Source: Actinomycetota bacterium (GTDB taxonomy: Bacteria > Actinomycetota > Actinomycetes > Mycobacteriales > Pseudonocardiaceae). Taken from it: 48,766 bases of DNA. The notes under the pieces were generated by a model. The model saw only the letters and a list, made by a program, of their open reading frames with translations, did no database searches and was not told the DNA's origin. The position numbers and the translations under genes were made by a program. Positions 4,469 through 48,070 of the stretch are shown piece by piece; the stretch's first letter is position 1, and each line of letters opens with the position of its first letter. The DNA is taken from contig JAJPIR010000241.1 in NCBI GenBank assembly GCA_021324675.1, positions 1 to 48,766 on the forward strand, written 5' to 3'.

Positions 4469-4528
4469 GGCGGATCTATGTGGCGGGAACAGCCCCAAAA
4501 GAGGCGGAAAGTCGTAAGCTGGAGGGCA

Positions 4529-4554
4529 CGCGTCCCGGGTGCGTTCGGGGCGCG
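4529..4554 (+). terminator. GC hairpin between ligase and cold-shock genes
   Basis: CGCGTCCC (4529-4536) can pair with GGGGCGCG (4547-4554), one G-U pair, with a 10-nt loop, 61 nt after the ligase stop. No T-run follows. It may terminate the ligase transcript or belong to the 5' leader of the cold-shock gene, where structured leaders are common. Confidence 0.3.
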
Positions 4555-4614
4555 TTCGTCTTGCTGGTCGTTCACCTCCGGCAGGCGGTACTCCACGAGG
4601 GAACGGTGAGGTCA

Positions 4615-5001
4615 GTGCCGACCGGCAAGGTCAAGTGGTACGACTCGAGCAAGGGCTTCGGATTCGTCACCCAAGACGGGGGTGCTGACGTCTACGTGCG
4701 CTCCACCGCGCTCCCGTCCGGAGTCACCGATCTGAAATCCGGTCAGCGGGTCGAGTTCGGAGTGGCCGACGGACGACGGGGTCCGCAGGCGCTGTCGGTG
4801 CGGTTGCTGGACTCGCCGCCGTCAGTGGCCGAGGCGCGGCGCCGGCCCGCCGAGGAGCTGCACGGCATGATCGATGACATGATCAGGTTGCTGGAGTCGC
4901 GAGTCCAACCGGATTTGCGCCGGGGTCGCTACCCCGACCGCCGCACCACCAAGCGGATCGGCGAGGTGGTGCGTGCTGTCGCGCAGGAGCTCGACCCCTG
5001 A
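4615..5001 (+). CDS. Cold-shock domain protein with C-terminal extension
   Basis: A nucleic-acid-binding protein of 128 residues. Residues 1-65 are a cold-shock fold: [17 protein letters not shown] contains RNP1 (KGFGFV), and DVYVR is a variant RNP2 where most homologs have DVFVH. The remaining half is a charged, helical extension ([18 protein letters not shown]) as in the longer actinobacterial CspB type (M. tuberculosis Rv0871 is similar in length). The GTG at 4615 starts at the conserved first strand; an open frame reaches far upstream but has no homologous content. Expected to act as an RNA chaperone in the cytoplasm. It is convergent with the MFS gene. Confidence 0.88.
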
Positions 5002-5008
5002 CCCCCAG

Positions 5009-5033
5009 TTGGTAGCTCTTCAAGGACTACCAA
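5009..5033. terminator. Bidirectional hairpin between csp and MFS genes
   Basis: TTGGTAG at 5009-5015 pairs with CTACCAA at 5027-5033 around an 11-nt loop, 7 nt after the cold-shock stop codon and between two convergent genes. There is no T-run, as is usual in actinobacteria. Confidence 0.45.
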
Positions 5034-5144
5034 CCCCCGTCAGAACCGTCTCAAACGACGGCCAACTCCGCGCGTGTCGATGTCTACGCCGACTGGCCGG
5101 CCGGTGGGGTCATCGAACCGGTCTACCGGCGCCTGGCCTGACCG

Positions 5145-6764
5145 CTACCGCGTGGCGAAGCCGGGGATCAGGGACGAACCGCGGCGGGTCAGCAGGGCCT
5201 GGGCCAGCCCCAGCGCCAGCAGCACTGAGACCGATGCGAAGCCGATCCAATAGGTCGGCGGCAGCAGCACTCCCAATGCGCCGCCCAGCACCCATGCCGT
5301 CTGTAGCACGGTCTCGGATCGGCCGAACGCCGAGGCCCGCGATTCCTCGGGAACGGCGCGCTGGATCACCGCGTCCAGGCAGACCTTGGCCATCGCGCTG
5401 GCCGTCGCGGCAACGAGTGCGGTGGCCGCGGCGACGATGATGCCGCCCACCAGGGCGGTCAGCACCGCCATGGTGAGCCCGGCGGCTACGCATCCGAAGG
5501 TGGCCTGATCGGGCCTACCGAAGTGGATCCGGGCGCCGACCGCGTTGCCGAGGAAGCTGCCGGCCCCCGCTGCCGCACCCACGATGCCCAGCAGCGCCAC
5601 CTGCCAGCCCGGCGATCCTTCGGTCTGGGCTTTCACCAGGAACGCCATGAACAGGGTGAGAAATCCAGTGAGCACCCGTGCGCTCCCGGCACCCCACAGC
5701 GCGACGACCACCTGGCGACCCATCGGCCGGCGATGCCGTGCCGAGCCGCGCGCGACGGCGGTCTCGGTGCGCAGTGAGGCCGGCACCTCACCTTCTGTGA
5801 CCTCCACCCACGAGGGGACCCGCAAGCACAGCGCTGCCCCCGCCAGGCAGATCACCGCGGTGAACAGCAACGCTCCGGGCGATCCGGTCAACGTGGCGAC
5901 GCCAGCGGCTATCGCCCCGGACACCGCCCCGGCGCCCAGCCCGAAGGCGGTGAGCCGCGAGTTCGTTTTCACCAGCGTGATCTCTGGTGGCAGCACCCGC
6001 GGGATCACCGCTGCCTGCAGCACACCATAGGACTTAGCCAGCACCATGAAACCCAGCGCCGCTGGGTACAGCAGCCAGTCGTGCACGTGCGCAGCCATCA
6101 CGATCAGCAGGAAGGCGCGCCCGGCAAAGGACAGCGCCATCGCTACCCGGCGGCCGTGCTGGAGCCGGTCCAGCAGCGGGCCGATCACCGGGGCGACCAC
6201 CGCAAACGGTGCCACCGTGATCAGCAGGTACAGCGCCACATTGGTCCGGCTTTCGGCGGTGGCTGCGGCAAAGAACAACGTATTGGCCAGCGCGACGGCA
6301 ATGGCCGCGTTGGCGGCGTAGTCCATCATCGCCGCGTACGTCAACGAGGACAGCCCCGACCGCCCAGCACCGTCGGCCGTGGCGGCTTGGTGGAAGCGCC
6401 GCACGCCGCCGCCGACCAGTTGCCTGCTCCGCCAGGCCGCCACCCGGGTAACGGTGATCTTGCGGGGCGGTGGTGGGCCGCTCGAGGACGGTTGCGAGCG
6501 GGAACCGTCCCTGGCTTCCTTGGCCGGGGGATCGGGCTGGTAGGCAGGGGCGTCCTGGCTCTGCCACGGATAGCGTGCTGATGGATCCGGGGCCGCCCGG
6601 CTGTCCCCATGACCAGTTTCCTCATGATCGGGAGGTGGCGAGGGTTCCGGGTCTTGCCAAGTGACGCGGCGGCCCTCCGGTACCCAGCGCCGGCGGCGGC
6701 CCGCGCGGCGGCGTGGCCGGGAGCCGGGGTGCTCGGCGCCAGAGGGGGACGGGGACCGCTTCAC
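5145..6764 (-). CDS. Major facilitator superfamily transporter
   Basis: Polytopic membrane protein of 539 residues. The first 130 or so residues are hydrophilic, rich in Pro, Arg and Ser and probably disordered; then about twelve hydrophobic segments follow in MFS spacing, with the loop RLQHGRRVAMALSFAGRAF resembling motif A. Closest recalled relative is the M. tuberculosis Rv0876c type, also next to a cspB-like gene; its substrate is not known. A GGGAGG motif lies directly against the ATG at 6773 but 9 nt before the GTG at 6764, so GTG is taken as start. A four-fold 10-bp repeat lies in its upstream region. Confidence 0.82.
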   Translation of the reverse strand: MKRSPSPSGAEHPGSRPRRRAGRRRRWVPEGRRVTWQDPEPSPPPDHEETGHGDSRAAPDPSARYPWQSQDAPAYQPDPPAKEARDGSRSQPSSSGPPPPRKITVTRVAAWRSRQLVGGGVRRFHQAATADGAGRSGLSSLTYAAMMDYAANAAIAVALANTLFFAAATAESRTNVALYLLITVAPFAVVAPVIGPLLDRLQHGRRVAMALSFAGRAFLLIVMAAHVHDWLLYPAALGFMVLAKSYGVLQAAVIPRVLPPEITLVKTNSRLTAFGLGAGAVSGAIAAGVATLTGSPGALLFTAVICLAGAALCLRVPSWVEVTEGEVPASLRTETAVARGSARHRRPMGRQVVVALWGAGSARVLTGFLTLFMAFLVKAQTEGSPGWQVALLGIVGAAAGAGSFLGNAVGARIHFGRPDQATFGCVAAGLTMAVLTALVGGIIVAAATALVAATASAMAKVCLDAVIQRAVPEESRASAFGRSETVLQTAWVLGGALGVLLPPTYWIGFASVSVLLALGLAQALLTRRGSSLIPGFATR

Positions 6765-6823
6765 GCGGTCCATCCTCCCATCACCTGCCGGGCCTGGGGC
6801 GGCATTGGCCCGTGCTACTCGGC

Positions 6824-6863
6824 GCTAATCAGGGCTAATCAGGGCTAATTAGGGCTAATCAGC
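6824..6863. repeat. Four tandem 10-bp repeats
   Basis: Units of GCTAATCAGG at 6824, 6834, 6844 (one change, C to T) and 6854 (last base differs). The period is one helical turn. The array sits between the stop of the cyclotransferase-like gene (6874) and the MFS start (6764), so in the MFS promoter region on the minus strand. Confidence 0.85.
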
Positions 6864-6873
6864 TCTACTGGCG

Positions 6874-7674
6874 CTACCGAGGAACGAAGCGCACCCGAAA
6901 CAGCGAAGGCCAGTGCTTGCCGGTGATGAGGAACTGGTCGGTGCCCGGAATCGCGGCGATGCCGTTGAGCACGTCGTCTCCCGCGGTCAGCGGGCTGAAC
7001 AGGCCCGACGCGTCGACCACGCCGGTCACCACGCCGGTGTTGGGGTTGATGCGCACGATTCGGTCGGTTTCGAAGACATTGGCCCAGACGATGTCCCCGG
7101 TGCATTCTAGTTCGTTGAGCTCCCGCAGGGGCTCGTCGTCTAGGCGGACCTGCACGTGACCCAGGACTGCAAACGTCACCGGATCACGGAAGGTGAGCTG
7201 ATCTGTGCCGTCGCTCATCACCAGCCGGTGCTCGTCGTGGCATAACCCCCATCCCTGGCCGGGGTAGGTCACGACGCGGCGCTGGACCAATGTCGCCGGA
7301 TCGCGCTCGATGGCCATGCCGTTGGTCCAGGTCAGCTGCCATAACGCAGTGTCGGTGACGGTGAGGCCTTCGCCAAACAGGGGAGCGGGCAAGGTGGCCT
7401 CCCGCAGCGGGCTGGCGCTGGGCAGCACGGTGGTCCGGACCCGGGACTGACCGACCAGCCCGCTGCTCTCGTACAGGATCCCGCCGTGCATTTCCAGACC
7501 TTCGGTGTACATGGTCGGGTCATGCGGCAGGGTGGCGAGCACCTCCACCCGCAACTGCTGGGCGCTGGATCGGCGAGTGCCACAGCCTGCGACCGTGGTG
7601 GCTGTCAGGACCAGGATGGCCAGCGCCGCCACGAGCACTGGCCGGATTGTCCAACCGCGATGGCGGTGCGGCAC
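6874..7674 (-). CDS. Glutaminyl-peptide cyclotransferase-like lipoprotein
   Basis: 266 residues. The N-terminus has basic residues, a hydrophobic run and a lipobox ending VAGC, so the mature protein should be a lipid-anchored exported protein. The rest matches the plant/bacterial-type glutamine cyclotransferase beta-propeller: FTEGL-like motif (YTEGLEMHGGILYESSG), repeated DPVTF/DPATL blades, LNELE, WANVFETDRIVRINPNTG and the ending LNGIAAIPGTDQFLITGKHWPSLFRV (a frequent family signature). It would convert N-terminal Gln to pyroglutamate on exported proteins or peptides. A longer frame up to 7797 exists, but the GTG at 7674 precedes the signal peptide. It is divergent from the DUF3027 gene with start codons almost touching, so one or both mRNAs may be leaderless. 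Confidence 0.8.
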   Translation of the reverse strand: MPHRHRGWTIRPVLVAALAILVLTATTVAGCGTRRSSAQQLRVEVLATLPHDPTMYTEGLEMHGGILYESSGLVGQSRVRTTVLPSASPLREATLPAPLFGEGLTVTDTALWQLTWTNGMAIERDPATLVQRRVVTYPGQGWGLCHDEHRLVMSDGTDQLTFRDPVTFAVLGHVQVRLDDEPLRELNELECTGDIVWANVFETDRIVRINPNTGVVTGVVDASGLFSPLTAGDDVLNGIAAIPGTDQFLITGKHWPSLFRVRFVPR

Positions 7675-7675
7675 A

Positions 7676-8443
7676 ATGGGACTCGTGATTGCCGACCCTA
7701 CCGCGCCCGGTACCGACCTCGTTGAGGCCGTCGAGCTGGCCCGGGAGGCCGCGCAGGAGGAGGCCGGTGACACTCCAGTCGGCGAGCATGTGGGCACGCA
7801 GGCCGAGGACGGTGGTGCGGTTACCCACTTGTTCGAGGCCGGCCTGCCCGGTTACCGCGGGTGGCGCTGGGCGGCCACGGTGGCCTCGGCAGGCCCGGGC
7901 ACCCCGGTCACGGTCAGCGAAGTGGTGCTTTTGCCCGGACCCGACGCGCTAGTCGCGCCACCGTGGCTGCCGTGGACCGAGCGGCTGCGTGCGGGTGATC
8001 TCGGCGTGGGTGACCTGCTTCCAGCCGACCCGGACGATCCACGCCTGGTGCCCGCTTATCTCGGTGAGGCAGACCCGGACCTGAGCTGGCTCAGCCCGGA
8101 GCTCGGGCTGGGAAGGCTGCGCGTGCTCAGTCGCCGGGCCCGCCTTGACTTGCTGCAACGCTGGCGCGACGGTGACCACGGTCCCGACTCGGACATGGCC
8201 CGCAATGCTCCCGAGCGGTGCCTGCACTGCGGTTTCTACCTACCACTCGGTGGCCTGCTTTCGGCTGCCCTCGGGGTCTGCGGTAACGAACTGGCCCCCG
8301 CTGACGGGCACGTGGTACACGCTGAGTTCGGCTGCGGGGCGCATTCCGAGGTCCGGGTGGATACCAGCCCCAACGTGCCGGTAGCCGAGCTGGTTTACGA
8401 CGATGCCGAGCTGGAGCTGCTGCCCTGGTCGCCGGTGGAGTAG
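7676..8443 (+). CDS. DUF3027 protein (Rv0877-like)
   Basis: 255 residues, conserved in actinobacteria but without a known function. The C-terminal third carries RCLHCGFYLPLGG, then CGNELAPADG and GCGAHSEV, a cysteine/histidine set that probably binds zinc. Its size and position (between the MFS and the DUF2530/MarR genes) match M. tuberculosis Rv0877. Start: ATG at 7676 or GTG at 7685; neither has a clear ribosome binding site and the former lies 1 bp from the divergent start, so leaderless translation is possible. The next gene follows after 11 nt, so the two are probably cotranscribed. Confidence 0.82.
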   Translation: MGLVIADPTAPGTDLVEAVELAREAAQEEAGDTPVGEHVGTQAEDGGAVTHLFEAGLPGYRGWRWAATVASAGPGTPVTVSEVVLLPGPDALVAPPWLPWTERLRAGDLGVGDLLPADPDDPRLVPAYLGEADPDLSWLSPELGLGRLRVLSRRARLDLLQRWRDGDHGPDSDMARNAPERCLHCGFYLPLGGLLSAALGVCGNELAPADGHVVHAEFGCGAHSEVRVDTSPNVPVAELVYDDAELELLPWSPVE

Positions 8444-8454
8444 CTATAGCCGAC

Positions 8455-11397
8455 TTGTTCGGCACTGATCCGTTCAACACCGCGATGTTGCGTGCTGGCG
8501 TGCTGGCCGCCTGGCGCGGTTCGCCGACCCGGCTCCGGGAAGACGCCAACGCCGAGTCCGACCTGGCCTTGCATGGTTACGCAGACCGGCTGCTCGGTGA
8601 ATTGGCGCAGAATGCCGCGGATGCTGCCCAGCGCGCAGGGGTACCGGGATACCTGCGGGTCAGCATCGAAGGCGGCGAGCTGCGTGCGGCAAACACCGGT
8701 ACGCCGCTTGACGCTGCCGGGGTGGCCGCGCTCGCCGCGCTACGCGCGTCAGCCAAACGGACTGGTGACAGCGTCGGCCAGTTCGGGGTTGGCTTCGCGG
8801 CGGTGCTCGCCGTCACCGACGCGCCGCGGGTGATCTCCCGATCCGGCGGTGTGCAGTTCTCCGCCGACCACACCGCAGCGGTGATCGCCGGAGATCCTGC
8901 ACTGAGCGCGGAGCTGGCTCGCCGCGGTGGGCGGCCCCCGGTGCTGCGGCTGATCTGGCCGGCCGGTGGTGACCCGCCGGCCGGGTTCGACACCGAGGTG
9001 CAGCTGCCGCTGCGCGCCGATGTCGATCCTGAGACGTTGCTCGCCCGCTGCGCCGACGAGGCTGCCGACTTGCTGCTGGCGTTGCCATGGCTGCACCGCA
9101 TCGACATCGGTGATCGGGTGTTGCGTCGCGAAGGTGACGACCCGGTGCTGGTGTATGACGGCTCGCAGCTGCACCGCTGGCGGGTGGTGCGCCGCACCGG
9201 GTCGCTGCCGGCTGCCGCGCTGGCCGGGCTCGGGCCGGAGGCGCGGCGGCAGTGGAGCCTGTGCTGGGCACTGCCTGTCGACGCTAGTGGCGCCCCGTTA
9301 CCCCTGGCCGGGGATGTGCTGCATGCCCCCACCCGCACCGCGGAGCGGCTGACCCTGCCGGCACGGCTGATCGCGGCACTGCCCGTCGATGCCTCCCGGC
9401 GCCACGTGTACCCCGGGCCAGCCGCTGACCTGGTACTCGATGCCGCCGCGGGCGCCTACCCGGAGCTGGCCGCCGCGCTGGCCCCGGATCGGCGTACCGC
9501 GCTGGTGCCGTCGCCGGGCTTTCCGGCCAGCGAGGTCGACGCGGGCCTGCGCGAGGGCATCATGGCGGCGCTGCGCCTGGCCCGGTGGCTGCCCGCCGCC
9601 GGCGGTGGCGAGGTGGAGCCAGCCGGCGCCGTAGTGCTCGACATGCCATTACCGGATCTTGCTGACCTGCTTACGGGGGTTGCTGCTGGCCTGCTCGACG
9701 CTGAGCTGGCCGTCCCTGCGCATGCCACCGCGCTGGCCGCGCTGGGGGTGACCCGCCTGGGCCCGCCAGCCATCACCGCACTGCTGGCCGGGTTGGACCG
9801 GCCCCCGTCGTGGTGGCGGAGCTGCTATGCGGCGCTGACCCCGATGGTGGATGGCGACCCGGCGGCCCGGGAGGAGCTCGGTGCGGTGCCGGTCCCGCTG
9901 GCCGACGGACGAACCGTGACCGGACCCCGCGGTTGTCTCCTGGGCGAGGTCGATGGTGTCGCGCCGCGCGACCTGGCGGGTGAGCTGCGGTTGGTACACC
10001 CGGAGGCCGTGCACCCGCTGCTGGAGCGGCTAGGCGCCCGCCGGGTGGGTCCCGGGGAGCTGCTCGATGCGCTACGCCCGGCCATCGAGCGCAGTGTTGA
10101 TGACGCGGAGGATGGCCTGGACATCGCCGGGCTCGCGCGCGCCGTGCTGTCGCTAGCTGGGCGGTTAACCGTCCAGGAAGCGGCGCCAGCCGCTGCCAGG
10201 CCCTGGCTAGGGGCGCTTGCACTTCCGGCCGACGACGGAATGCCCCGGCGGGCCGACGAGCTGGTGTTGCCTGGCGCAGTGTTGCGGGATGTGCTTGCCG
10301 CGGATGCGCCGCTGGGTGTACTCGACGCTCGCGTGGCAGCCGGGCACCCTGCCGCGGCGCTGCGCGCTGTCGGGGTGTTGGACTCGTTCGCCGTCCTCGA
10401 TGAGGCGGACCCGGATGGCCCGGATCACGATCTGGATGCCGAAGAGCAGTGGTGGGACTGGGTGCTCGATACCGAAGGCAGCCCGCCGGCGCGGTTGCTC
10501 GCCGTCCGGGACTTGGACCTTGTGGACCCGACGCGCTGGCTGGCGGCGCTGCAACTGATCGCGAGTGATCCCGCGGGCCTGGCGGCGCTGCGCGCGCCTG
10601 GCGGCTACACCGGCTGGTGGCTGGCCCGGTATGCCCGGTTCGGCGGCCACCCGCCGGCGTATTGGCGGCTGCCCGACGCTGTTGAGCTTGAGGGTCTCTA
10701 TGACGTCGTACCGCTACTTGATGACGTCGTGCCGCTACTTGATACGTGCGCCGCGTTACTGGCCGCTGCGGGGGTGCGCAGCCGACTCAGCGCTATTGAC
10801 GCTGACGATGCCGCTGACCTGCTGGCCAGGCTGGCCGACCCGGCCCGCGTGGTGACCCCTGCGGTGGTGCACGCGGCGCATACCGCGCTGGCCAGTGCGA
10901 ACCTCGACCCGGCTAGCGTGGAACCTCCGGTTCGGGTACGGACGGTAACCGGTGGGGTGGTCGACGCCGATCGGGCGATCGTGCTCGACGCTCCGTGGCT
11001 GTCCGTGGTGCTCCCGGCTGGCCAGCTGGTGTCTGGCGGTGACCCGGAGTTGCTGGCTGAGCTGCTGGATCTGCCGCTGGCGTCCGAGCAGGTGGCGCCT
11101 GAATTGCTCGACGCGGGCGCCGGGCGGCCGGTGCGGTGGGTTGAGCTGGTGGAGGTGGTCGCTGTGTGCGCCGCTGCCGGGCTCGCCGTCCCGGAAGGAT
11201 CGCTGCGCCTGCACGAGCAGCTGCGGGTACGGCTCAACGGCACTGAGCATCCGGTGCCGTTCTGGGTCGCCACGGACGGTACCGTGCATGCCTCCGACCC
11301 GGTGCGCGCGGTGCTCACCACAGCAATCCCCGCTGAGCGCCCCGGGAGCCCCGCTGGACTGCGCGGCGCTGCCAGTGGATCATCCCTAACCCGATGA
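8455..11397 (+). CDS. Sacsin N-terminal-like ATPase (Hsp90-type GHKL fold)
   Basis: 980 residues. The N-terminal part (about 35-200) has the Bergerat ATP-binding fold: N-box ELAQNAADA near residue 48 and the glycine lid GQFGVGFAAV near 107, as in sacsin and Hsp90-like proteins. The long remainder is Leu/Ala-rich, repetitive and unassigned. Such proteins are common in actinobacteria, annotated as sacsin N-terminal ATP-binding-like, and their role is not established; a chaperone role is inference. The TTG at 8455 is the first usable start after the upstream stop. It contains a 21-bp in-frame duplication at 10701-10742. Its last 83 bp overlap the oppositely oriented DUF2530 gene. Confidence 0.83.
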   Translation: MFGTDPFNTAMLRAGVLAAWRGSPTRLREDANAESDLALHGYADRLLGELAQNAADAAQRAGVPGYLRVSIEGGELRAANTGTPLDAAGVAALAALRASAKRTGDSVGQFGVGFAAVLAVTDAPRVISRSGGVQFSADHTAAVIAGDPALSAELARRGGRPPVLRLIWPAGGDPPAGFDTEVQLPLRADVDPETLLARCADEAADLLLALPWLHRIDIGDRVLRREGDDPVLVYDGSQLHRWRVVRRTGSLPAAALAGLGPEARRQWSLCWALPVDASGAPLPLAGDVLHAPTRTAERLTLPARLIAALPVDASRRHVYPGPAADLVLDAAAGAYPELAAALAPDRRTALVPSPGFPASEVDAGLREGIMAALRLARWLPAAGGGEVEPAGAVVLDMPLPDLADLLTGVAAGLLDAELAVPAHATALAALGVTRLGPPAITALLAGLDRPPSWWRSCYAALTPMVDGDPAAREELGAVPVPLADGRTVTGPRGCLLGEVDGVAPRDLAGELRLVHPEAVHPLLERLGARRVGPGELLDALRPAIERSVDDAEDGLDIAGLARAVLSLAGRLTVQEAAPAAARPWLGALALPADDGMPRRADELVLPGAVLRDVLAADAPLGVLDARVAAGHPAAALRAVGVLDSFAVLDEADPDGPDHDLDAEEQWWDWVLDTEGSPPARLLAVRDLDLVDPTRWLAALQLIASDPAGLAALRAPGGYTGWWLARYARFGGHPPAYWRLPDAVELEGLYDVVPLLDDVVPLLDTCAALLAAAGVRSRLSAIDADDAADLLARLADPARVVTPAVVHAAHTALASANLDPASVEPPVRVRTVTGGVVDADRAIVLDAPWLSVVLPAGQLVSGGDPELLAELLDLPLASEQVAPELLDAGAGRPVRWVELVEVVAVCAAAGLAVPEGSLRLHEQLRVRLNGTEHPVPFWVATDGTVHASDPVRAVLTTAIPAERPGSPAGLRGAASGSSLTR
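10701..10742 (+). repeat. In-frame 21-bp duplication inside the sacsin-like gene
   Basis: Two 21-bp units, 10701-10721 and 10722-10742, with one difference (A to G at the ninth base). They encode DVVPLLD twice in a row. This looks like a recent slippage event in a coding region. Confidence 0.9.
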
Positions 11398-36957: not shown

Positions 36958-37016
36958 GGTTGATGTGTCGTGCAAACTTTTCCGTGGACTGGTCAGGACA
37001 CTTTAGGAGGGTCTGG

Positions 37017-37886
37017 ATGTACCCGTCTCGTTTCCATTACGAGGCTCCAAGTACGCTCGATGAGGCTTTCGAGGCTATCGAGGCATACGGTGACGAGGCG
37101 AAAATCCTCGCCGGAGGAATGAGCCTCATCCCTCTTATCAAACTACGTTTCGCTGCGCCGGCGTGCATCGTTGACATCAACAATATTCCGGGTCTCGATT
37201 ACCTCGAAGAGGAGTCCGACGGGTCCCTGCGCATCGGTGCCCTGTGCCGCCACAGGACGCTTGAGCGGTCGTCATTGCTCCGGAATAACTACCCCGTGAT
37301 GTTCGCCACCGCGCCGCTCATCGCCGACCCCATGGTCCGCAATCGCGGAACTCTGGTCGGCTCCATCTGCCACGCAGACCCGCAGGGTGACTGGGCGTCG
37401 GTGATGCTGTCGCTTGGTGGCGAGATCATCGCCCGCAACGCTGAGGGTCGCGAGCGTTCCATCCCGGTCTCGCAGTTCGTGGTCGGTCCGTTCCAGAACT
37501 CCCTGCAGACTGGGGAGATCGCGGTGGCGGCCAAGGTGCCACCCGCCCGGGGAACCCGCACCGGAACCTATCTCAAGCTCGAGCGGCGGGTGGGCGACTT
37601 CGCAACCGTCGGCGTGGCCATCAACCTCGAGATGTCCGGCGGCACGATCAACCGGGCTGGCATCGCGCTGACCGGTGTCGGGGGAAACAACATTCAGTGC
37701 ACCTCGGCTGAGCAATCACTGGCCGGTAAGTCGCTCAATGCCAGCACAATCGATCAGGCAGCGCGGCTGGCAGCCGACGCGGCGCAGCCTAAGAACGACG
37801 TCCGCGGCAGCATTGAGTACAAGCGCCACATTGTTTACACCTTCGTCCAGCGTGGGTTGAGCAGCCGAGAGGCCCGGGCGGCCTGA
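37017..37886 (+). CDS. coxM: CO dehydrogenase medium (FAD) subunit
   Basis: 289 residues. Takes electrons from the Fe-S subunit to FAD and on to the respiratory chain. Begins MYPSRFHYEAPSTLDEA, has the FAD loop AGGMSLIPLIKLR near residue 40, and IADPMVRNRGTLVGSICHADPQGD, where most homologs carry a TIGG/TLGG motif. RVGDFATVGVA and the C-terminal domain are normal. The ATG at 37017 has AGGAGG 6 nt upstream (37005-37010). First gene of coxMSL; a 57-nt gap precedes coxS. Codon use is visibly less GC-rich than in the genes before 35 kb. Confidence 0.93.
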   Translation: MYPSRFHYEAPSTLDEAFEAIEAYGDEAKILAGGMSLIPLIKLRFAAPACIVDINNIPGLDYLEEESDGSLRIGALCRHRTLERSSLLRNNYPVMFATAPLIADPMVRNRGTLVGSICHADPQGDWASVMLSLGGEIIARNAEGRERSIPVSQFVVGPFQNSLQTGEIAVAAKVPPARGTRTGTYLKLERRVGDFATVGVAINLEMSGGTINRAGIALTGVGGNNIQCTSAEQSLAGKSLNASTIDQAARLAADAAQPKNDVRGSIEYKRHIVYTFVQRGLSSREARAA

Positions 37887-37943: not shown

Positions 37944-38456
37944 GTGGAAGAGCGACGAATTAACGTCGTGGTGAACGGGGAACCGGTCTCGGTCGATGTC
38001 GAGCCTCGCATACTGCTGGCCCACTTTCTCCGGGAAATCATGGGCCTGACCGGGACCCACATCGGCTGCGACACAACGAACTGCGGTGTGTGCACCGTAC
38101 TTGTGGACGGTTTGCCCATGAAGTCGTGCACCATGTTCGCCGTCATGACCGACGGGCATGAGGTGACGACCGTCGAAGGTCTTGGCATGCCCAGTGAGCT
38201 GCACCCCATCCAGCAAGGCTTCCGGGAGGAGCACGGACTGCAGTGCGGTTTCTGCACGCCCGGGATGATGCTGGCCTCGAAAGCAATTCTTGACGAGAAT
38301 CCCAACCCAACAGAGGAAGACGTCCGCTGGGGACTAGCGGGCAACCTCTGCCGGTGCACCGGTTACCAAAACATCGTAAAAGCTGTGCTTTGGGCCGCTG
38401 AAAAAATGCGGTCCGAGGGTGGAGCGTACGTGCTGGGCGGCAGAAGCCGACGATAA
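37944..38456 (+). CDS. coxS: CO dehydrogenase small (2x[2Fe-2S]) subunit
   Basis: 170 residues. N-terminal plant-type cluster ligated by C42, C47, C50 and C62 ([10 protein letters not shown] and KSC); C-terminal helical domain with the second cluster at C101, C104, C136 and C138 (CGFCTPGM and CRCTGY). Passes electrons from the Mo-Cu site to the FAD. Start GTG at 37944 with AGGAGG at 37934-37939. Eleven nucleotides to coxL. Confidence 0.95.
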
Positions 38457-38467
38457 GGGAGATTGAC

Positions 38468-40858
<2,391 letters not shown>

Positions 40859-40903
40859 CTTGTGGGTCGATCAGGTAGGTCGGAATAGGTAAGGTCGGTG
40901 ACC

Positions 40904-41893
40904 ATGGACGGGTGGGACGTCCTTGAGCGTGCGCGCGAGTTGTCGCAGCGCGGTGAGGCGTTCGCATTGGCCACAGTTGTGTGGCGGCGGGGCCCGTCCT
41001 CGGGCAAGGAAGGTTACCGGGCTGTCATCACAGCCTCGGGGCAGGTGTTCGGCTTTATTGGCGGGGCCTGTGCCGAACCGGTAGTTGTTCGCGAGGCTCG
41101 GCACATCCTTGCCGAGGGTGTGCCGCGCCTCGTGTTTCTCGGCACGCCTGACGAGCTCGAGTCGGTGGCCGTCCGGGAGGGCATCAGCTATGTACCGATG
41201 TCCTGCCAAAGCGAAGGTGCCTTGGAAATCTACATCGAACCGGTAGAACCCAAGACCCACCTTGTCGTGATCGGGCGGTCACCGATGGTCGAGGCCCTCG
41301 TTCAGATGGGCCAGGCGATTGGCTGGCGGACAGTGCTCGTCGACCCGGACGGTGGGTCGGCAGACAGCCACCCCATGGCACAGCACGTTGTGAGCAAGCT
41401 TGATCTTAAGGCAGCAGGGGTGGATGAACGCTCGCTCGTAGTGGTGGCCACTCAGGGTCATCACGATGAGGAAGCGGTCGAGCAGGCGCTACTAGCGGGG
41501 CCCGCCTACGTAGGTTTAGTGGGCTCGCGTCCGCGGGCAAAATCTGTGTTGGAGTTCCTCGAGGGTAAGGGATTGCCTAAGGAGACTCTGGCTCGGGTGA
41601 AGGTGCCGGCGGGCCTCGATCTCGGAAAAGTTTCACACCGAGAGATCGCCGTGGGTGTACTGGCTGAGTTAGTGCAGCTTCGGGCAGCCGGTGGGTTTGG
41701 CAAAGGCATGCCGCACGAGGTGCCTGAAATCACCGAAGCAATCGATCCGGTGTGTGGCATGACAGTGGAGGTAGGGTCCGCCCGGCACACGGTGGACCAC
41801 GATGGAACCACATACTACTTCTGCTGTCCGGGATGCGCGCGAGCTTTTGAGAAGGATCCCGCTGCATACATTGGGTCGGGAACGAAGTCGTGA
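40904..41893 (+). CDS. XdhC/CoxF-family maturation factor fused to a YHS domain
   Basis: 329 residues. N-terminal XdhC-CoxI region (ERARELSQRGEAFALATVVWRRGPSSGKEGYRAVI pattern) with GACAEPVVVREAR, then a Rossmann-like part from about residue 115 (HLVVIGRSPMVEAL, VVATQGHHDEEAVEQALL, VGLVGSRPRAKSVLEFL). Such proteins bind and insert the sulfurated Mo cofactor. From residue 280 a complete YHS domain follows (IDPVCGMTVEVG, then FCCPGCARAFEKDP), with one Cys in the first strand and CCPGC later: a likely metal-binding site, possibly copper. The fusion is unusual. Starts: ATG 40904 with AAGG 9 nt upstream, or GTG 40898. Confidence 0.85.
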   Translation: MDGWDVLERARELSQRGEAFALATVVWRRGPSSGKEGYRAVITASGQVFGFIGGACAEPVVVREARHILAEGVPRLVFLGTPDELESVAVREGISYVPMSCQSEGALEIYIEPVEPKTHLVVIGRSPMVEALVQMGQAIGWRTVLVDPDGGSADSHPMAQHVVSKLDLKAAGVDERSLVVVATQGHHDEEAVEQALLAGPAYVGLVGSRPRAKSVLEFLEGKGLPKETLARVKVPAGLDLGKVSHREIAVGVLAELVQLRAAGGFGKGMPHEVPEITEAIDPVCGMTVEVGSARHTVDHDGTTYYFCCPGCARAFEKDPAAYIGSGTKS

Positions 41894-41935: not shown

Positions 41936-42502
41936 ATGCTGATCGAGAACGAGTTCGAGGTTGCTGCACCGCTTGATGCGGTGTGGAAGCACATGCAAGA
42001 CGTGCCGCGGATTGCGCCGTGCATGCCGGGCGCCGAGCTTCTCGATGTCAACGGCGATACATACAAGGGACGAGTAACGACCAAGATGGGGCCGGTGAAG
42101 CTCCAGTTCCTGGGCACCGCCAGAATTGTCCAGCGGGACGAGTCCGCCAAGCGGATCGTGATGGAAGCATCCGGGTCTGAAGAAAAAGGTAAGGGCCAGG
42201 CCACCATGAAGGTGACGTCCACGATGGCGCCTTCGGGAAGTGGGACGCGCGTGAAGGTGGCTCAAGATATTAACCTTTCCGGTGCTGCTGCCCAGTTTGG
42301 TAGGGGCATGGTCCAAGACGTCACCAGCGTGCTCATGAGGAGTTTCGCCAAGTGCATCGCGGATGATATTGGGCGGGCTTCCCGCGGCGAGGCAGCCGTA
42401 CAACGCGAAGCAGTTCCCGTGAAGGGTTTCAGCATCGCCATGCAGGCGTGGATGACTGCACTGAAACGGTTCTTCGGTCGGCTTTTCGGCGGCCGGGGGT
42501 AG
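41936..42502 (+). CDS. coxG: CoxG, SRPBCC-fold CO dehydrogenase partner
   Basis: 188 residues. Residues 1-145 are an SRPBCC domain: MLIENEFEVAAPLDAVWKHM, VPRIAPCMPGAELL, GRVTTKMGPVKLQFLG, ending DVTSVLMRSFAKCI. The C-terminal 30 residues are hydrophobic and basic (AWMTALKRFFGRLFG) and should dip into the membrane as in other CoxG proteins. In mycobacteria CoxG is reported to bring menaquinone to the dehydrogenase. It follows the XdhC-YHS gene and precedes the small membrane protein cassette. Confidence 0.88.
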   Translation: MLIENEFEVAAPLDAVWKHMQDVPRIAPCMPGAELLDVNGDTYKGRVTTKMGPVKLQFLGTARIVQRDESAKRIVMEASGSEEKGKGQATMKVTSTMAPSGSGTRVKVAQDINLSGAAAQFGRGMVQDVTSVLMRSFAKCIADDIGRASRGEAAVQREAVPVKGFSIAMQAWMTALKRFFGRLFGGRG

Positions 42503-42539: not shown

Positions 42540-42806
42540 ATGTTCCTCTGGTGGATTGGCAACGCGATCCTACTTTTCGTGGTGTTGCCGATCGTCGCCG
42601 TCTTGATGAACCGAATCGTCACGCCTGTCGATCGGATCCGTAAGACGGTGGATGACATTTTGTACCACGGGGTCATTCTGACTGGCGAGCTGGACAATGT
42701 GCCAGCGATGCTGGCAGAGACGGACGCCACCGTCAATGAGGTGGGTCTTGGAGCTACCCGCTACGTGAAGCGCGTTGGTGGTCTGCTGCAGACACTGGGT
42801 GTCTAA
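42540..42806 (+). CDS. Small single-pass membrane protein A of the cox cassette
   Basis: 88 residues, unknown family. One helix (about 5-25, LWWIGNAILLFVVLPIVAVL) then an amphipathic helical region with VDRIRKTVDDIL and VPAMLAETDATVNEVG. GAGAGG lies upstream of the ATG. First of five genes with the same architecture between coxG and the strong terminator at 44386; weak sequence resemblance to the others in the spacing of hydrophobic residues after the membrane helix. Probable role as membrane component near CO dehydrogenase is inferred only from position. Confidence 0.72.
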   Translation: MFLWWIGNAILLFVVLPIVAVLMNRIVTPVDRIRKTVDDILYHGVILTGELDNVPAMLAETDATVNEVGLGATRYVKRVGGLLQTLGV

Positions 42807-42847
42807 GCGAGCGAATACCTGAGATATCGAGAAAGAGGAGGAAGGCC

Positions 42848-43075
42848 ATGACTGCAGCCGGAGCGGTCACGCTGTTGGCTGTTGCACTGATCGTCGCCGT
42901 AGTGGGCCTCTCGTTGGTGAAGGTGATCGCTCAGCTTCGGCATGTCACGTGGACTCTTGGCACGATCATCGTAGGTGTCAATGCGATCGCGTACCAGACT
43001 CGGACGATTCCTGATGTGATCCCGAAGGTGAACGCCAACTTGGCACCAGTACGAGCTATGGCAGAACAGGTTTAA
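42848..43075 (+). CDS. Small single-pass membrane protein B of the cox cassette
   Basis: 75 residues, unknown family. One long helix (about 7-28, VTLLAVALIVAVVGLSLVKV) and an amphipathic tail with NAIAYQTRTIPDVIPKVNANL, a motif echoed in protein F (IAQQAEVVIPAVEHIN). A strong GAGGAGG precedes the ATG at 42848. The tail's regular hydrophobic spacing suggests a coiled-coil or surface helix. No catalytic residues are visible. Confidence 0.72.
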   Translation: MTAAGAVTLLAVALIVAVVGLSLVKVIAQLRHVTWTLGTIIVGVNAIAYQTRTIPDVIPKVNANLAPVRAMAEQV

Positions 43076-43126
43076 CGGTCAGCTGCAGCCGATGAGGTTG
43101 ATGCTGACATCGAAAAAGGAGTGACG

Positions 43127-43306
43127 ATGCACGAGTTCACGTGCGCACATCAAGAGTGCAGTTCGCAGTTTGCTTCGCACGACAAGGCTACTTTGATGAA
43201 GCAGGTCGCTGACCATGTTAGGGACGTGCACAACGTGCAGGTGCCAACCCAGACGATTCTGGGCTACCTGGAAGCGACTAGCGTGACGACGACTGAAGAT
43301 CGCTAG
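43127..43306 (+). CDS. DUF1059 small protein
   Basis: 59 residues matching DUF1059: HEFTCAHQECSSQF, then ATLMKQVADHVRDVHNV, with two Cys and several His in zinc-finger-like spacing (C-x4-C and H-x4-H). Start ATG at 43127 follows AAGGAG by 5 nt. It is the only soluble member of the cassette. Function unknown; metal binding is plausible. Confidence 0.75.
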   Translation: MHEFTCAHQECSSQFASHDKATLMKQVADHVRDVHNVQVPTQTILGYLEATSVTTTEDR

Positions 43307-43354
43307 TTATTTTAAGTCAGTTGAAATAACTGCTACCGAAAGGAGGGCTGCGGG

Positions 43355-43636
43355 ATGGTGTTTTTGGCACAGGCATCCGGGCCCGCTGAGGCGCACCTGT
43401 TTGGATGGTACCTGGGTTTCGCGATTGCTGTCGTGGTGATCTCCGTGGTGGTCGCTTTGGTGGCCCCGGTTTTGGTCCTCGCAGCCCGAATTGCCCGTCA
43501 GGCTCCACAAATCAACCAGGCCCTGCAGCAGTCATATCGGAACACGCTGCCGTTGGCAGACCTACGACAGACGATTGACCACGCGGAGGTCATCATCGGA
43601 GGTTTGGAACGCGGCCGAGCTAGGCTTGGAGGTTAG
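43355..43636 (+). CDS. Small single-pass membrane protein D of the cox cassette
   Basis: 93 residues. Unlike A, B and F it has a short N-terminal segment before a long hydrophobic region (about 17-45, LGFAIAVVVISVVVALVAPVLV). A tail with RIARQAPQINQALQQS and LRQTIDHAEVIIGGL follows. AAGGAGGG precedes the ATG. Gap to the next gene is 2 nt, so it is translated with it. Family unknown. Confidence 0.7.
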   Translation: MVFLAQASGPAEAHLFGWYLGFAIAVVVISVVVALVAPVLVLAARIARQAPQINQALQQSYRNTLPLADLRQTIDHAEVIIGGLERGRARLGG

Positions 43637-43638
43637 CG

Positions 43639-43971
43639 ATGCCACTGCTATTGGGATATGCGGGCGCTCCTGACGGATATGCCCCTGAGGAGGCCACCTT
43701 CTGGTGGGTCGCGGTAGGAATGGGCTTCGTGGTCTTGGCCGTGGTCATCCTCTTGCTGAGTTCCCTGGTCTCGATGGTCAGATCCATCGACCGAAGCGTG
43801 GTGGGAGTGCGAGACACCCTGCGTGCGATCCCGCAGAATACCGCGAACTGCGCGCTCATCCCTATCACGGCCGATAGGGTCGACGCGGTACTCGCGGAAG
43901 GTCTGCAGCATCACCTGTTCTTGACCCGGGTCCTCACTGGGTCGGGGACGCCGACGGGTGGAAAGGGCTAG
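43639..43971 (+). CDS. Small single-pass membrane protein E of the cox cassette
   Basis: 110 residues. A hydrophilic N-terminus of about 20, one helix (about 23-46, FWWVAVGMGFVVLAVVILLL) and a tail with VRSIDRSVVGVRDTLRAIPQNTANCALIP. The IPQNT/IP spacing recalls proteins B and F. TTGGAGG lies before the ATG. Two nt separate it from gene F. Family unknown. Confidence 0.7.
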   Translation: MPLLLGYAGAPDGYAPEEATFWWVAVGMGFVVLAVVILLLSSLVSMVRSIDRSVVGVRDTLRAIPQNTANCALIPITADRVDAVLAEGLQHHLFLTRVLTGSGTPTGGKG

Positions 43972-43973
43972 AC

Positions 43974-44336
43974 ATGGTTCTCGTTACTATCACGGTAATC
44001 TGCATCGCGGCGTTGATCGCGGTACTGGCGATGTTCCTGTTCATCATCGGTGTGCTGCTTAACCGCATCGCGGACAACCTCGATGACTGCTTGGGGAACG
44101 TGAAGACCATCGCCCAGCAGGCAGAGGTGGTTATTCCTGCCGTCGAGCACATCAACCGCACCGGTGGTGTGGTGGCAGGGGCGCTGCCGCTGCTGTACGG
44201 CGGTGCGGAAAAGATCGCCGCGAAGCTGGCTCCTCCTACGCCCGCGCCGGTCAATGGCCACACCAATGTTCCCGCGTCTGGGCGCCGTCGGTCTCGTCTC
44301 ATGGACACCGTTGGTTTCCGGGGCCGCCATCACTAA
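43974..44336 (+). CDS. Small single-pass membrane protein F of the cox cassette
   Basis: 120 residues. Helix at about 4-29 (VTITVICIAALIAVLAMFLF), then LLNRIADNLDDCL and KTIAQQAEVVIPAVEHIN, a Gly-rich segment and a Pro/Arg-rich, probably disordered tail. GGAAAGGG precedes the ATG. Last gene before the strong terminator, so the operon appears to end here. Best matched in the tail to protein B. Family unknown. Confidence 0.7.
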   Translation: MVLVTITVICIAALIAVLAMFLFIIGVLLNRIADNLDDCLGNVKTIAQQAEVVIPAVEHINRTGGVVAGALPLLYGGAEKIAAKLAPPTPAPVNGHTNVPASGRRRSRLMDTVGFRGRHH

Positions 44337-44385
44337 AGAAGAAGAGCGACAAGTTCGAGTAGCTCTCTCTTCGCCGGTAGCAGCG

Positions 44386-44431
44386 AAATAGTGGGGCGGC
44401 GACCACCTGGTCGCCGCCCCACTATTTTTTT
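44386..44431 (+). terminator. Strong rho-independent terminator of the cox operon
   Basis: A perfect 20-bp stem (44386-44405 with 44408-44427), G+C-rich in the middle with GTGGGGCGGCGACC on the left arm, and a run of T after the right arm to 44431. It ends the plus-strand operon 50 nt after the last gene and lies 11 nt before the end of the opposing GIY-YIG-like gene, so it could also slow readthrough from that side. Confidence 0.93.
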
Positions 44432-44441
44432 CATGTCTAAC

Positions 44442-44885
44442 TCAGTCTATTGGTGCTTCATCGGGACCGCGCTTAGCGAGTGGGCCTGTGAGCTCAGACT
44501 CGTACGAGCCGATCCAATGATCGTCCCAGTGCTGGTCGTACTTGACTTCGTTGCAGTGCGGGTTGTAGACCGCGGCGAGTTCCTGGCAAATTTGCTCTCG
44601 GTGAGACCGAGCCCATCCCTCGACCTCGTAGGTGCAGATGTGCAACTTCCACCGCGAGCCCGCGCGGGCGATCCAGCAGTTGGCTCGTGGGTGTTTGAAG
44701 GGAAAGCCGGCTTGCGCCATGTTGTCGGCGTGACCGACGTAGATCACCGCGTAGCGGTCTGGTTTCGTTTCGGGATCGGGCTTGTACATGATCGCAAAGA
44801 CTGCCGGTCGGTTCGGGGGAGTCCACCCGCCGAGGATCCGGGGGCCCTCGAACGAGTAGCCAGCGAGCGATCCGAGGCGGATCAT
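44442..44885 (-). CDS. GIY-YIG-like protein
   Basis: 147 residues. YAVIYVGHADN in the middle resembles the GIY-YIG core strand, and REQICQELAAVYNPHCNE resembles its last helix with the catalytic Glu and the YNPxxN motif. Otherwise there is no recognised domain. Such proteins are small nucleases, but not all are active; the Arg usually found between the motifs could be one of several in WIARAGSRWKLH. It lies at the end of the minus-strand unit with coxD-coxE. The start ATG at 44885 overlaps the stop of a 7-codon frame (44882-44905). Confidence 0.6.
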   Translation of the reverse strand: MIRLGSLAGYSFEGPRILGGWTPPNRPAVFAIMYKPDPETKPDRYAVIYVGHADNMAQAGFPFKHPRANCWIARAGSRWKLHICTYEVEGWARSHREQICQELAAVYNPHCNEVKYDQHWDDHWIGSYESELTGPLAKRGPDEAPID

Positions 44886-44975: not shown

Positions 44976-45269
44976 TCACATCTCGTACTCTGCGTCGTCT
45001 TCTTCTTCGCTCACAGCCTCGACGCGGACGATCGGGAACACAGGGAGTCCTGCCTTCTGCACCGCGTCGGCGAAATGCTCCTTACCCTTCTTGATCGCTT
45101 CCTCGCGACCGTCCGCAAACACGACCATCTGAGCGCCATAGGTATTGGTACCGATGCCGGTCGCGATGCCGCAGATCGGCGCGACCGCATCGGCCAGCTC
45201 GACGACCTCTTCGACTTTCATGATGCGGTCACCCTCGGCTACGATTCCGACGCTCCATCTCATCAACAT
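44976..45269 (-). CDS. Unknown 97-aa protein coupled to coxE
   Basis: 97 residues, unknown family. A compact alpha/beta look: VEEVVELADAVAPICGIATGIG, TYGAQMVVFADGREEAIKKGKEHFADAVQKAG, then FPIVRVEAV and a very acidic tail (SEEEDDAEYEM). No membrane segment. The ATG at 45269 is preceded by GGGGAGA next to the stop codon of coxE, a gap of 14 nt, so translation is likely coupled. It could be a small partner of the VWA protein. Confidence 0.65.
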   Translation of the reverse strand: MLMRWSVGIVAEGDRIMKVEEVVELADAVAPICGIATGIGTNTYGAQMVVFADGREEAIKKGKEHFADAVQKAGLPVFPIVRVEAVSEEEDDAEYEM

Positions 45270-47684: not shown

Positions 47685-48017
47685 CTACTCATCCTGCTCA
47701 GCGGAGCCGAAAATGAGCTCCCGAACACTGGTCCCCTGGGACAGCTTGCCTTCGCGCTCCAACTTCTTCTTCCAGGCGGCGCGAAGGTTGCTCGTACCCA
47801 CGGATTGCGCGTCAGCTGACATCCCGACATCTTCCGCCAGACCTTCGAAGCCTACTCCCCGCATGTTCCGGCAGGTGTTGTTGTTGCCACACGCCTCGTC
47901 CAGATCGGCACTCGTTTGACCCTGAGCCTTCCAGATGCCACGCAGCGCGGAGAGTGCCTCCTTGCCATCACCGGTCAAATTGTCGGTTGCTTTTTCGTTT
48001 CCGTGCTCTTGGCTCAT
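47685..48017 (-). CDS. Unknown 110-aa soluble protein between coxD and sodA
   Basis: Acidic at the N-terminus (MSQEHGNEKATDNLTG), helical, with ACGNNNTCRNMRG in the centre where two Cys lie six residues apart, followed by SNLRAAWKKKLEREGKL. No family recognised. Start ATG at 48017 is preferred (GGAGAGGG lies about 10 nt before it); the frame is open to 48041. It is likely cotranscribed with sodA. Confidence 0.6.
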   Translation of the reverse strand: MSQEHGNEKATDNLTGDGKEALSALRGIWKAQGQTSADLDEACGNNNTCRNMRGVGFEGLAEDVGMSADAQSVGTSNLRAAWKKKLEREGKLSQGTSVRELIFGSAEQDE

Positions 48018-48070
48018 GTCCACGTTCCCTCTCCGATACACCTGGCCAGGGGACCCTCTAGAAGACCTGT

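Follow-up and report, generated by a model that had tools for sequence, protein, structure and literature searches.

The window analyzed here is a 48,766-nucleotide stretch of DNA from an actinobacterium of the family Pseudonocardiaceae (assembly GCA_021324675.1, contig JAJPIR010000241.1). Its plus strand contains a complete form I carbon monoxide dehydrogenase (CODH) operon, in which five genes for small single-pass membrane proteins, here called P1 to P5, follow the enzyme genes. The order is coxM-coxS-coxL-XdhC/YHS-coxG-P1-P2-DUF1059-P3-P4-P5, and an intrinsic terminator (44385-44428), a 20-pair stem followed by T's, closes the operon. We concluded that P1-P5 form a membrane module that is portable between soluble trace-gas oxidases. 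The module most likely docks these enzymes and couples them to menaquinone.

All genes of the operon are on the plus strand. P1 (42540-42806) encodes 88 residues, P2 (42848-43075) 75, P3 (43355-43636) 93, P4 (43639-43971) 110 and P5 (43974-44336) 120. A DUF1059 protein (43121-43306; PF06348, 23.5 bits against a cut-off of 21.1) is encoded in the interval between P2 and P3. A preliminary description of this DNA had placed five open reading frames (ORFs) of 75-120 residues at these starts, between coxG and the terminator, and had noted two gaps of 2 nucleotides. The ORF coordinates and the terminator stem confirm this; the gaps are those between P3 and P4 and between P4 and P5. As for the ribosome binding sites it had assigned to each gene, purine-rich, Shine-Dalgarno-like stretches are visible by eye 5' of the starts, the one preceding P1 being less clear.

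The enzyme is assigned through coxL (38468-40858), which encodes the large subunit. CoxL matches TIGR02416 with 1064.8 bits, above the cut-off of 991.15 that identifies form I CODHs. It carries AYRCSFR at the form I active-site loop, AYxCSFR, as do the CoxL proteins of the module-linked loci L020, L026, L090, L093, L115, L119 and L152. coxM (36960-37886) and coxS (37944-38456) encode the FAD and iron-sulfur subunits, and the order coxM-S-L is kept in relatives. The best NCBIfam matches of CoxM are FAD-binding subunits of the same enzyme superfamily, every one below its cut-off. The next gene (40898-41893) encodes an XdhC/CoxI-type maturation protein (PF13478, PF02625) with a fused YHS domain (PF04945). 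The YHS domain may be a metal site, and metal delivery to the Mo-Cu center would be a guess at its role. coxG (41936-42502) matches PF06240 with 70.9 bits; as read from the ORF, its product has a short C-terminal tail lacking a transmembrane (TM)-like anchor. A CoxE-like VWA protein and an AAA (CoxD-like) ATPase are also encoded in the window.

P1-P5 are real genes under purifying selection. Their dN/dS ratios are 0.06-0.24 in comparison with loci L016 and L019; L021, which is more distant, gives 0.09-0.37. The corresponding values for the DUF1059 gene are 0.11 and 0.13 (L016, L019) and 0.53 (L021). In the alignments of the five proteins (A1-A5, 85 rows), each protein has one hydrophobic segment, located near the N-terminus, in agreement with the single membrane helix described earlier. 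The best 19-residue Kyte-Doolittle (KD) mean is never below 2.34, and no second-best segment exceeds 1.68. Lysine and arginine are more common on the C-terminal side of the segment than on the N-terminal side in 83 of the 85 rows. Because of this excess, the positive-inside rule predicts an N-out/C-in topology for each protein.

The regions following the membrane segment had been described as regular amphipathic tails. Their periodicity peaks at 101-106 degrees. It is clearly above that of shuffled sequences for P5 (0 of 500 shuffles equal it), whereas for P1-P4 it is only weakly above (15, 26, 39 and 88 of 500). The P5 profile matches designed coiled-coil bundles in the PDB, which shows a heptad-like pattern, not kinship; the other PDB profile matches of P5 and P1, including chemoreceptors and TrpA, were set aside for the same reason. 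In single-chain AlphaFold2 models, P4 is a single helix of residues 16-100 (mean pLDDT 73.4, pTM 0.36), and P1 is composed of helices 2-51 and 54-86 (mean pLDDT 84.5, pTM 0.37). These models cover P1 and P4 as monomers and carry no information on assembly. A GRRRSR-like stretch is found near the C-terminus of P5 in most CODH-linked rows of A5. In locus L025, P5 (7212-7880) has a C-terminal extension of about 100 residues, the end of which, we presume, resembles a domain on other actinobacterial proteins. In the close relative L014, the match of P3 (1753-1962) to the window P3 covers only the first two thirds of the latter, after which the frame changes, either in reality or through a sequencing error.

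P1-P5 also resemble each other. Profile-profile comparison gave probabilities of 97% for P2 and P5, 95% for P3 and P4 and 87% for P1 and P4. These are three of the ten possible pairs, and because all three look related, the set looks like one expanded family. The faint spacing motifs that the preliminary description saw in the five proteins have a basis in this kinship. It had also made its proposal depend on the absence of a link to a known unrelated family, and profile searches are in line with it. No window P protein matches a Pfam or NCBIfam family over the curated cut-off, DUF948, MCP-like and Mce-type families included. Mce-type, general-stress and phage families were rejected as candidates, with no match over cut-off in Pfam, NCBIfam and PHROGs. 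At an E-value of 0.01, none of 17 A1 members matches anything in the family library, and one of 17 A5 members matches DUF2802 (E 0.0074). Weak matches to AI-2E transporters, GspL, FtsL, CtpM and unnamed PHROGs look like noise from the TM helix.

The set recurs as a unit, tied by position to two unrelated classes of gas-oxidizing enzymes in several gene orders. A P1 scan of named genomes yielded 15 loci. The set follows coxG in 12, from Pseudonocardiales, Pseudonocardiaceae and one Actinobacteria metagenome-assembled genomes, and Rhizocola hellebori. Ten of these 12 loci include coxL; the L014 and L019 contigs end before coxL, and that of L015 ends after DUF1059. Cox genes were not found in the other three named loci (L022, L023, L028). 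In L028, P1 is broken and P5 shortened, and the adjoining HTH, HAD and reductase genes are like those flanking the window operon. This locus looks decayed, as after loss of the cox genes. A P1 search of 150 genomes of the order gave matches in seven, of which four are convincing (the window's own genome, G100, G023 and G013) and three weak; L027 of the named scan is the same contig as L011 of this search.

Among 396 genomes of the phylum, the P4 profile matches 38 and the P1 profile 37, the own genome included. The union of the two, with the own genome and the weakly matching G198 excluded, is 38 genomes. In the loci examined, all five P kinds are found at 28 bits or more in 29 of them, and one to four kinds in the others. 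A CODH gene (coxL or coxG) or a [NiFe]-hydrogenase gene lies within 10 kb of the module in 33 of the 38. The distance is at most 5.1 kb in 32 of these and 7.4 kb in G245; G311 is counted solely because coxL lies 4.4 kb from an incomplete P1-P2 pair. Under a generous chance model, 33 of 38 has a probability of about 3e-43, a value uncorrected for common descent.

Four kinds of arrangement are found. In kind (a), that of the window, coxMSL-XdhC-coxG is followed by P1-P2-P3-P4-P5, with CoxL proteins 78-80% identical to the window's (L090, L093-L099). Together with L088, these are nine further phylum loci with the order coxG-P1-P2-P3-P4-P5; the L088 contig starts at coxG, and a coxMSL of that genome is found at the end of another contig (L155). 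In kind (b), P3-P4-P5-P1-P2 lies upstream of form I coxMSL (L115, L119, L152). Here CoxL is 53-55% identical to the window's, AYRCSFR is present in all three, and in L119 a CoxG-like gene precedes P3. Conservation beside form I cox genes, on which the earlier proposal also depended, is therefore found behind coxG in the 12 named and nine phylum loci and in another order in these three.

Kinds (c) and (d) are linked to hydrogenases. In kind (c), the genes are co-directional in the order HydS-P3-P4-P5-P1-P2-HydL (L117, L127, L156, L157, L160), and the two halves of this order are found at contig ends in L158 and L116. The HydL proteins of the five loci and L116 form one clade. In kind (d), which includes L101, L104 and L111, P3-P4-P5 is divergent from HydS, and P1-P2 is located elsewhere in the cluster or on another contig. 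These clusters carry varying subsets of genes for HypC, HypD, maturation-protease-like, NifU-like, CooC-like (by eye), TPR and BirA-like (below the Pfam cut-off) proteins. L103 and L105 have two P3-P4-P5 sets each, one of them behind an additional hydrogenase large subunit. The genes for these divergent large subunits (L103:3858-5567, L105:13038-14747) have no adjacent small subunit gene and are directly followed by P3-P4-P5. The DUF1059 gene adjoins P2 in the hydrogenase-linked L103 and L108, and also in L121, L124 and L126. The large subunit of L104 scores 473 bits to HofG (5aa5), the actinobacterial-type hydrogenase of Cupriavidus, and 141 bits to Huc (7utd).

Several other features were noticed around the module. 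Two tandem DUF1059 stretches lie between P2 and P3 in L021 (9607-10109) and L024 (9622-10104), the first without an ORF having a start. In Rhizocola hellebori, two divergent coxMSL sets with the form I motif lie side by side (L026:6-3174 and 3653-10630); one is accompanied by coxG and the P module, and the other is cut at the edge of the stretch seen. Three further, longer single-pass proteins (c18a-c19-c18b) accompany the P module in L088, L090, L103, L105, L107, L108, L124, L125 and L012, beside both CODH and hydrogenase and often with a fourth gene (c20); c19 is a sub-threshold DUF948 match. YceI-like genes are present in four module loci, adjacent in L012 (9592-10446), next to coxG in L119 (8253-8963) and 6-7 kb away in L114 (1423-2013) and L121 (14974-15519); the Pfam YceI match refers to L012, the one tested. 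YceI proteins bind isoprenoids. Convergent to the window operon, small proteins are encoded on the minus strand at 44442-44885, 44976-45269 and 47685-48041, with no Pfam match. Similar-looking genes fall into clusters of eight loci each, mostly beside CODH-linked modules; the window genes were assigned to them by eye.

Loci away from the module served as controls. In the phylum, coxL matches above the family cut-off number 58 and come from 56 genomes; the module lies near 13 of these matches (a hand count in which the split G333 contig is one). Twenty controls, with CoxL 54-62% identical, were drawn from the 45 matches not linked to the module. No P gene matches are found near coxL in any of the 20 loci, two of which are on contigs of only about 7 kb; in three of the control genomes (G348, G411, G517) the module is present at another site. 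Two second copies of coxL in genomes with the module (L153, L154) likewise have no P matches.

The module-linked hydrogenases are a distinct group. In 19 genomes the best match to the L104 large subunit has 53% identity or more, and 18 of these genomes carry P genes; G483, which does not, is 75% complete. P genes are present in only six (G000, G238, G245, G248, G269, G406) of the 37 genomes having only a 30-43% identical hydrogenase (Fisher test about 2e-19, uncorrected for common descent). The own genome's distant hydrogenase (contig C302, L151) has no P genes within the 12 kb examined, and its locus contains NifU-like, HybD-like, HypC and HypD matches.

We built a tree of P3-P4-P5 from 55 blocks. 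It is a quick tree with long branches and a midpoint root. One group with 100% support contains every one of the 21 CODH modules of the window type, and five unlinked sequences are nested in it. Kinds (b) and (c) each form one group with 100% support on the hydrogenase side of the tree, and the L115/L119/L152 type is located among hydrogenase-linked modules, away from the window type. This placement is suggestive of two independent recruitments to CODH. We do not claim two origins, because a single CODH clade is not rejected by the AU test (p 0.337).

The tails of CoxG bear on how the enzyme may reach the membrane. CoxG has been reported as the menaquinone-binding link for CODH (PMC13240472, citing Kropp et al. 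2025) and implicated as the membrane anchor of the mainly cytosolic enzyme (PMC6794299). No TM-like C-terminal segment is found in any of the 22 module-linked CoxG proteins examined, which have a best 19-residue KD mean of at most 1.44 or no tail; the distant CoxG-like match of L115 is not among the 22. By eye, they end in an amphipathic-looking stretch, except in L119, where the protein ends at the domain. In the 20 control loci, no CoxG was found in eight, two are cut and 10 are complete. Six of the complete control proteins have a TM-like tail with a KD mean of at least 1.84 (L128-L131, L133, L134). The contrast (Fisher test 2e-4, uncorrected for phylogeny) fits the module taking over the anchoring function, although common descent is another possible explanation. 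The own genome contains a second coxG (G000:C246:12506-12925; L003, L148), which shares 87% identity with the window copy and has no coxMSL or P matches in the 18 kb examined.

Taken together, P1-P5 probably form one heteromeric membrane module, homologous to the HylTM1-5 proteins of certain hydrogenase clusters, which in the window is attached to a form I CODH and docks it near menaquinone. Each subunit is predicted to cross the membrane once with its N-terminus outside and to extend a long helix into the cytoplasm; the helices are modeled for P1 and P4. The C-terminal helices together would form a membrane-rooted platform or stalk. The soluble enzyme, for which we take a cytoplasmic location from the literature and from its family, would dock on this platform: CoxMSL with the anchor-less CoxG in the window, and HydSL in other genomes. 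The platform may place the electron exit of the enzyme, and the menaquinone-carrying CoxG, at the bilayer. The quinone pool would then receive electrons from CO or H2, for CODH through CoxG and for the hydrogenase either directly to menaquinone or through the small subunit. The membrane platform linked to menaquinone that was suggested at the outset appears to fit these data best. A more specific version is tentative and clearly less probable. In it, P1-P5 would assemble as a membrane-rooted heteropentameric helical stalk or tube, a universal adaptor feeding menaquinone from the bilayer to unrelated soluble enzymes, form I CODHs and group 1l- and 1m-type hydrogenases, with CoxG as a shuttle riding on the stalk in CODH operons.

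Several observations weigh against a module that docks its enzyme near menaquinone. No conserved set of heme, FeS or metal ligands was noticed in P1-P5, so there is no obvious electron relay; for this reason we favor docking and quinone access over a relay function. In the sample, no module lies near most of the form I CODHs and canonical group 1h-type hydrogenases, which indicates that it is not needed in general. CoxG has no TM-like tail in four of the 10 complete controls either (L142, L144, L145, L147; KD 0.58-1.54). The tail type may therefore follow phylogeny, and we rejected it as proof of anchor replacement, with which it is only partly consistent. No CODH or hydrogenase was found in the stretches examined of five of the 38 genomes (G248, G269, G395, G406, G527), with only about 1.8 kb examined in G248 and G395. 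The set is present without CODH or hydrogenase matches in L012, L013 and L023, and without cox matches in L022 and L028, where hydrogenases were checked by reading the ORF list only.

Such observations leave room for other explanations. P1-P5 could be a membrane-side scaffold for assembly or maturation of oxygen-exposed gas oxidases, not a part of the working enzyme. Maturation genes are indeed found in the same neighborhoods, including XdhC, the CoxE-like VWA protein and the AAA (CoxD-like) ATPase in the window, and HypC, HypD, maturation-protease-like, NifU-like and CooC-like (by eye) ATPase genes near the set in hydrogenase loci, and DUF1059 is a frequent companion. However, the two enzymes mature by unrelated chemistry, whereas passing electrons on to the respiratory chain is required of both. 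In the kind (c) loci the five genes separate the genes for the two structural subunits, and the module-less hydrogenase of the own genome has NifU-like, HybD-like, HypC and HypD genes as well. We consider a maturation scaffold unlikely.

A general membrane-organizing or stress module, merely co-regulated with trace-gas enzymes in starved cells, is less likely still. It would account for loci in which the set, complete or partial, occurs with neither enzyme (L012, L013, L110, L089, L091, L092) and for the longer single-pass proteins (c18/c19) nearby, one with its sub-threshold DUF948 match. Yet a gas oxidase lies within 10 kb in 33 of the 38 genomes, no match to stress, Mce or other known families exceeds its cut-off, and the window-type CODH-linked P3-P4-P5 sequences form the 100%-supported group in which the five unlinked ones are nested. 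The association in 33 of 38 genomes and the chance model contradict a chance origin. That the genes are chance neighbors, or passengers of the operon functionally unrelated to CODH, as retention of the cassette in L022 and L028 where cox genes were not found might suggest, is highly improbable given the purifying selection, the recurrent pairing with two enzyme classes, the order kept in named Pseudonocardiales, in Rhizocola and in genomes outside the class, and the decayed appearance of L028.

The electron route from soluble CODHs and actinobacterial-type atmospheric hydrogenases to the respiratory chain has been called unresolved (PMC6883350, PMC6794299). A five-protein membrane set common to both enzyme types points to a common electron-delivery solution. 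It would give the CO and H2 sinks of soil bacteria a mechanistic link, and it provides a defined gene set for deletion, purification and modeling. The finding is real and widespread, but it is not categorically new, since a hydrogenase counterpart is mentioned in print. A CODH-specific invention is not supported, given the same set beside [NiFe]-hydrogenases and the published group 1l counterpart. Within the open literature, the link to CODH appears new, as do the presence of the same five-gene set in group 1l-type, group 1m-type and CODH clusters and the P3-P4-P5 part of group 1m-type clusters. No CODH operon with this five-gene set was found in the open-license literature, supplements aside.

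Canonical form I cox operons, which we take to be of the mycobacterial type, share coxMSL, the AYxCSFR motif, an XdhC-like gene and in part coxG with the window operon. They differ in lacking P genes (20 of 20 loci), and in L128-L131, L133 and L134 CoxG has a TM-like segment of its own.

The closest likeness is to hydrogenase clusters. The partner hydrogenases were assigned to group 1l or 1m type from gene architecture, not HydDB phylogeny. In group 1l [NiFe]-hydrogenase clusters, as described in the text of PMC9561532 (citing its ref. 24), five short TM proteins (HylTM1-5) separate the subunit genes. The same arrangement between hydS and hydL, built of P3-P4-P5-P1-P2, is found in the kind (c) loci. 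The window copy is not located between hydS and hydL; it follows coxG in a cox operon, in the order P1-P2-P3-P4-P5 with DUF1059 inside. Because homologues in the order P3-P4-P5-P1-P2 occupy that position elsewhere, the window set is, judged by gene context and similarity, a homologue of the group 1l TM module and not a member of a hydrogenase cluster. A tblastn search of plasmids with the L127 large subunit gave 12 records, the best 43.2% identical and none of group 1l type by similarity.

Group 1m (HhmSL) clusters, according to the same text, contain HybD, an FeS assembly protein, a CooC-type ATPase, TPR, BirA and DUF1059 proteins and two single-TM proteins of 82-92 residues, and the enzyme models best on 5AA5 (PMC9561532). 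Kind (d) loci share varying subsets of these: NifU-like, TPR, maturation-protease-like, HybD-like and CooC-like (both by eye) and BirA-like (below the Pfam cut-off) proteins, DUF1059, and a pair of small single-TM proteins consistent with P1 and P2. The enzyme is one other than CODH. The text names only the two small TM proteins, whereas here P3-P4-P5 is also present, divergent from HydS (L101, L104, L111). Since kinds (c) and (d) match these descriptions, P3-P4-P5-P1-P2 most likely corresponds to HylTM1-5, equated on gene architecture and size, not on HylTM sequences, and P1 and P2 appear to be the two small group 1m proteins, equated in the same way.

The HucM stalk delivers menaquinone to the group 2a hydrogenase Huc, as described in PMC10017518. 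HucM is one protein that forms a homotetramer, whereas the P module has five distinct members, every one with a TM helix of its own, and no test made identifies HucM as a relative. As a membrane-associated helical scaffold from which a soluble gas oxidase receives menaquinone, HucM is a functional precedent for the P module by analogy.

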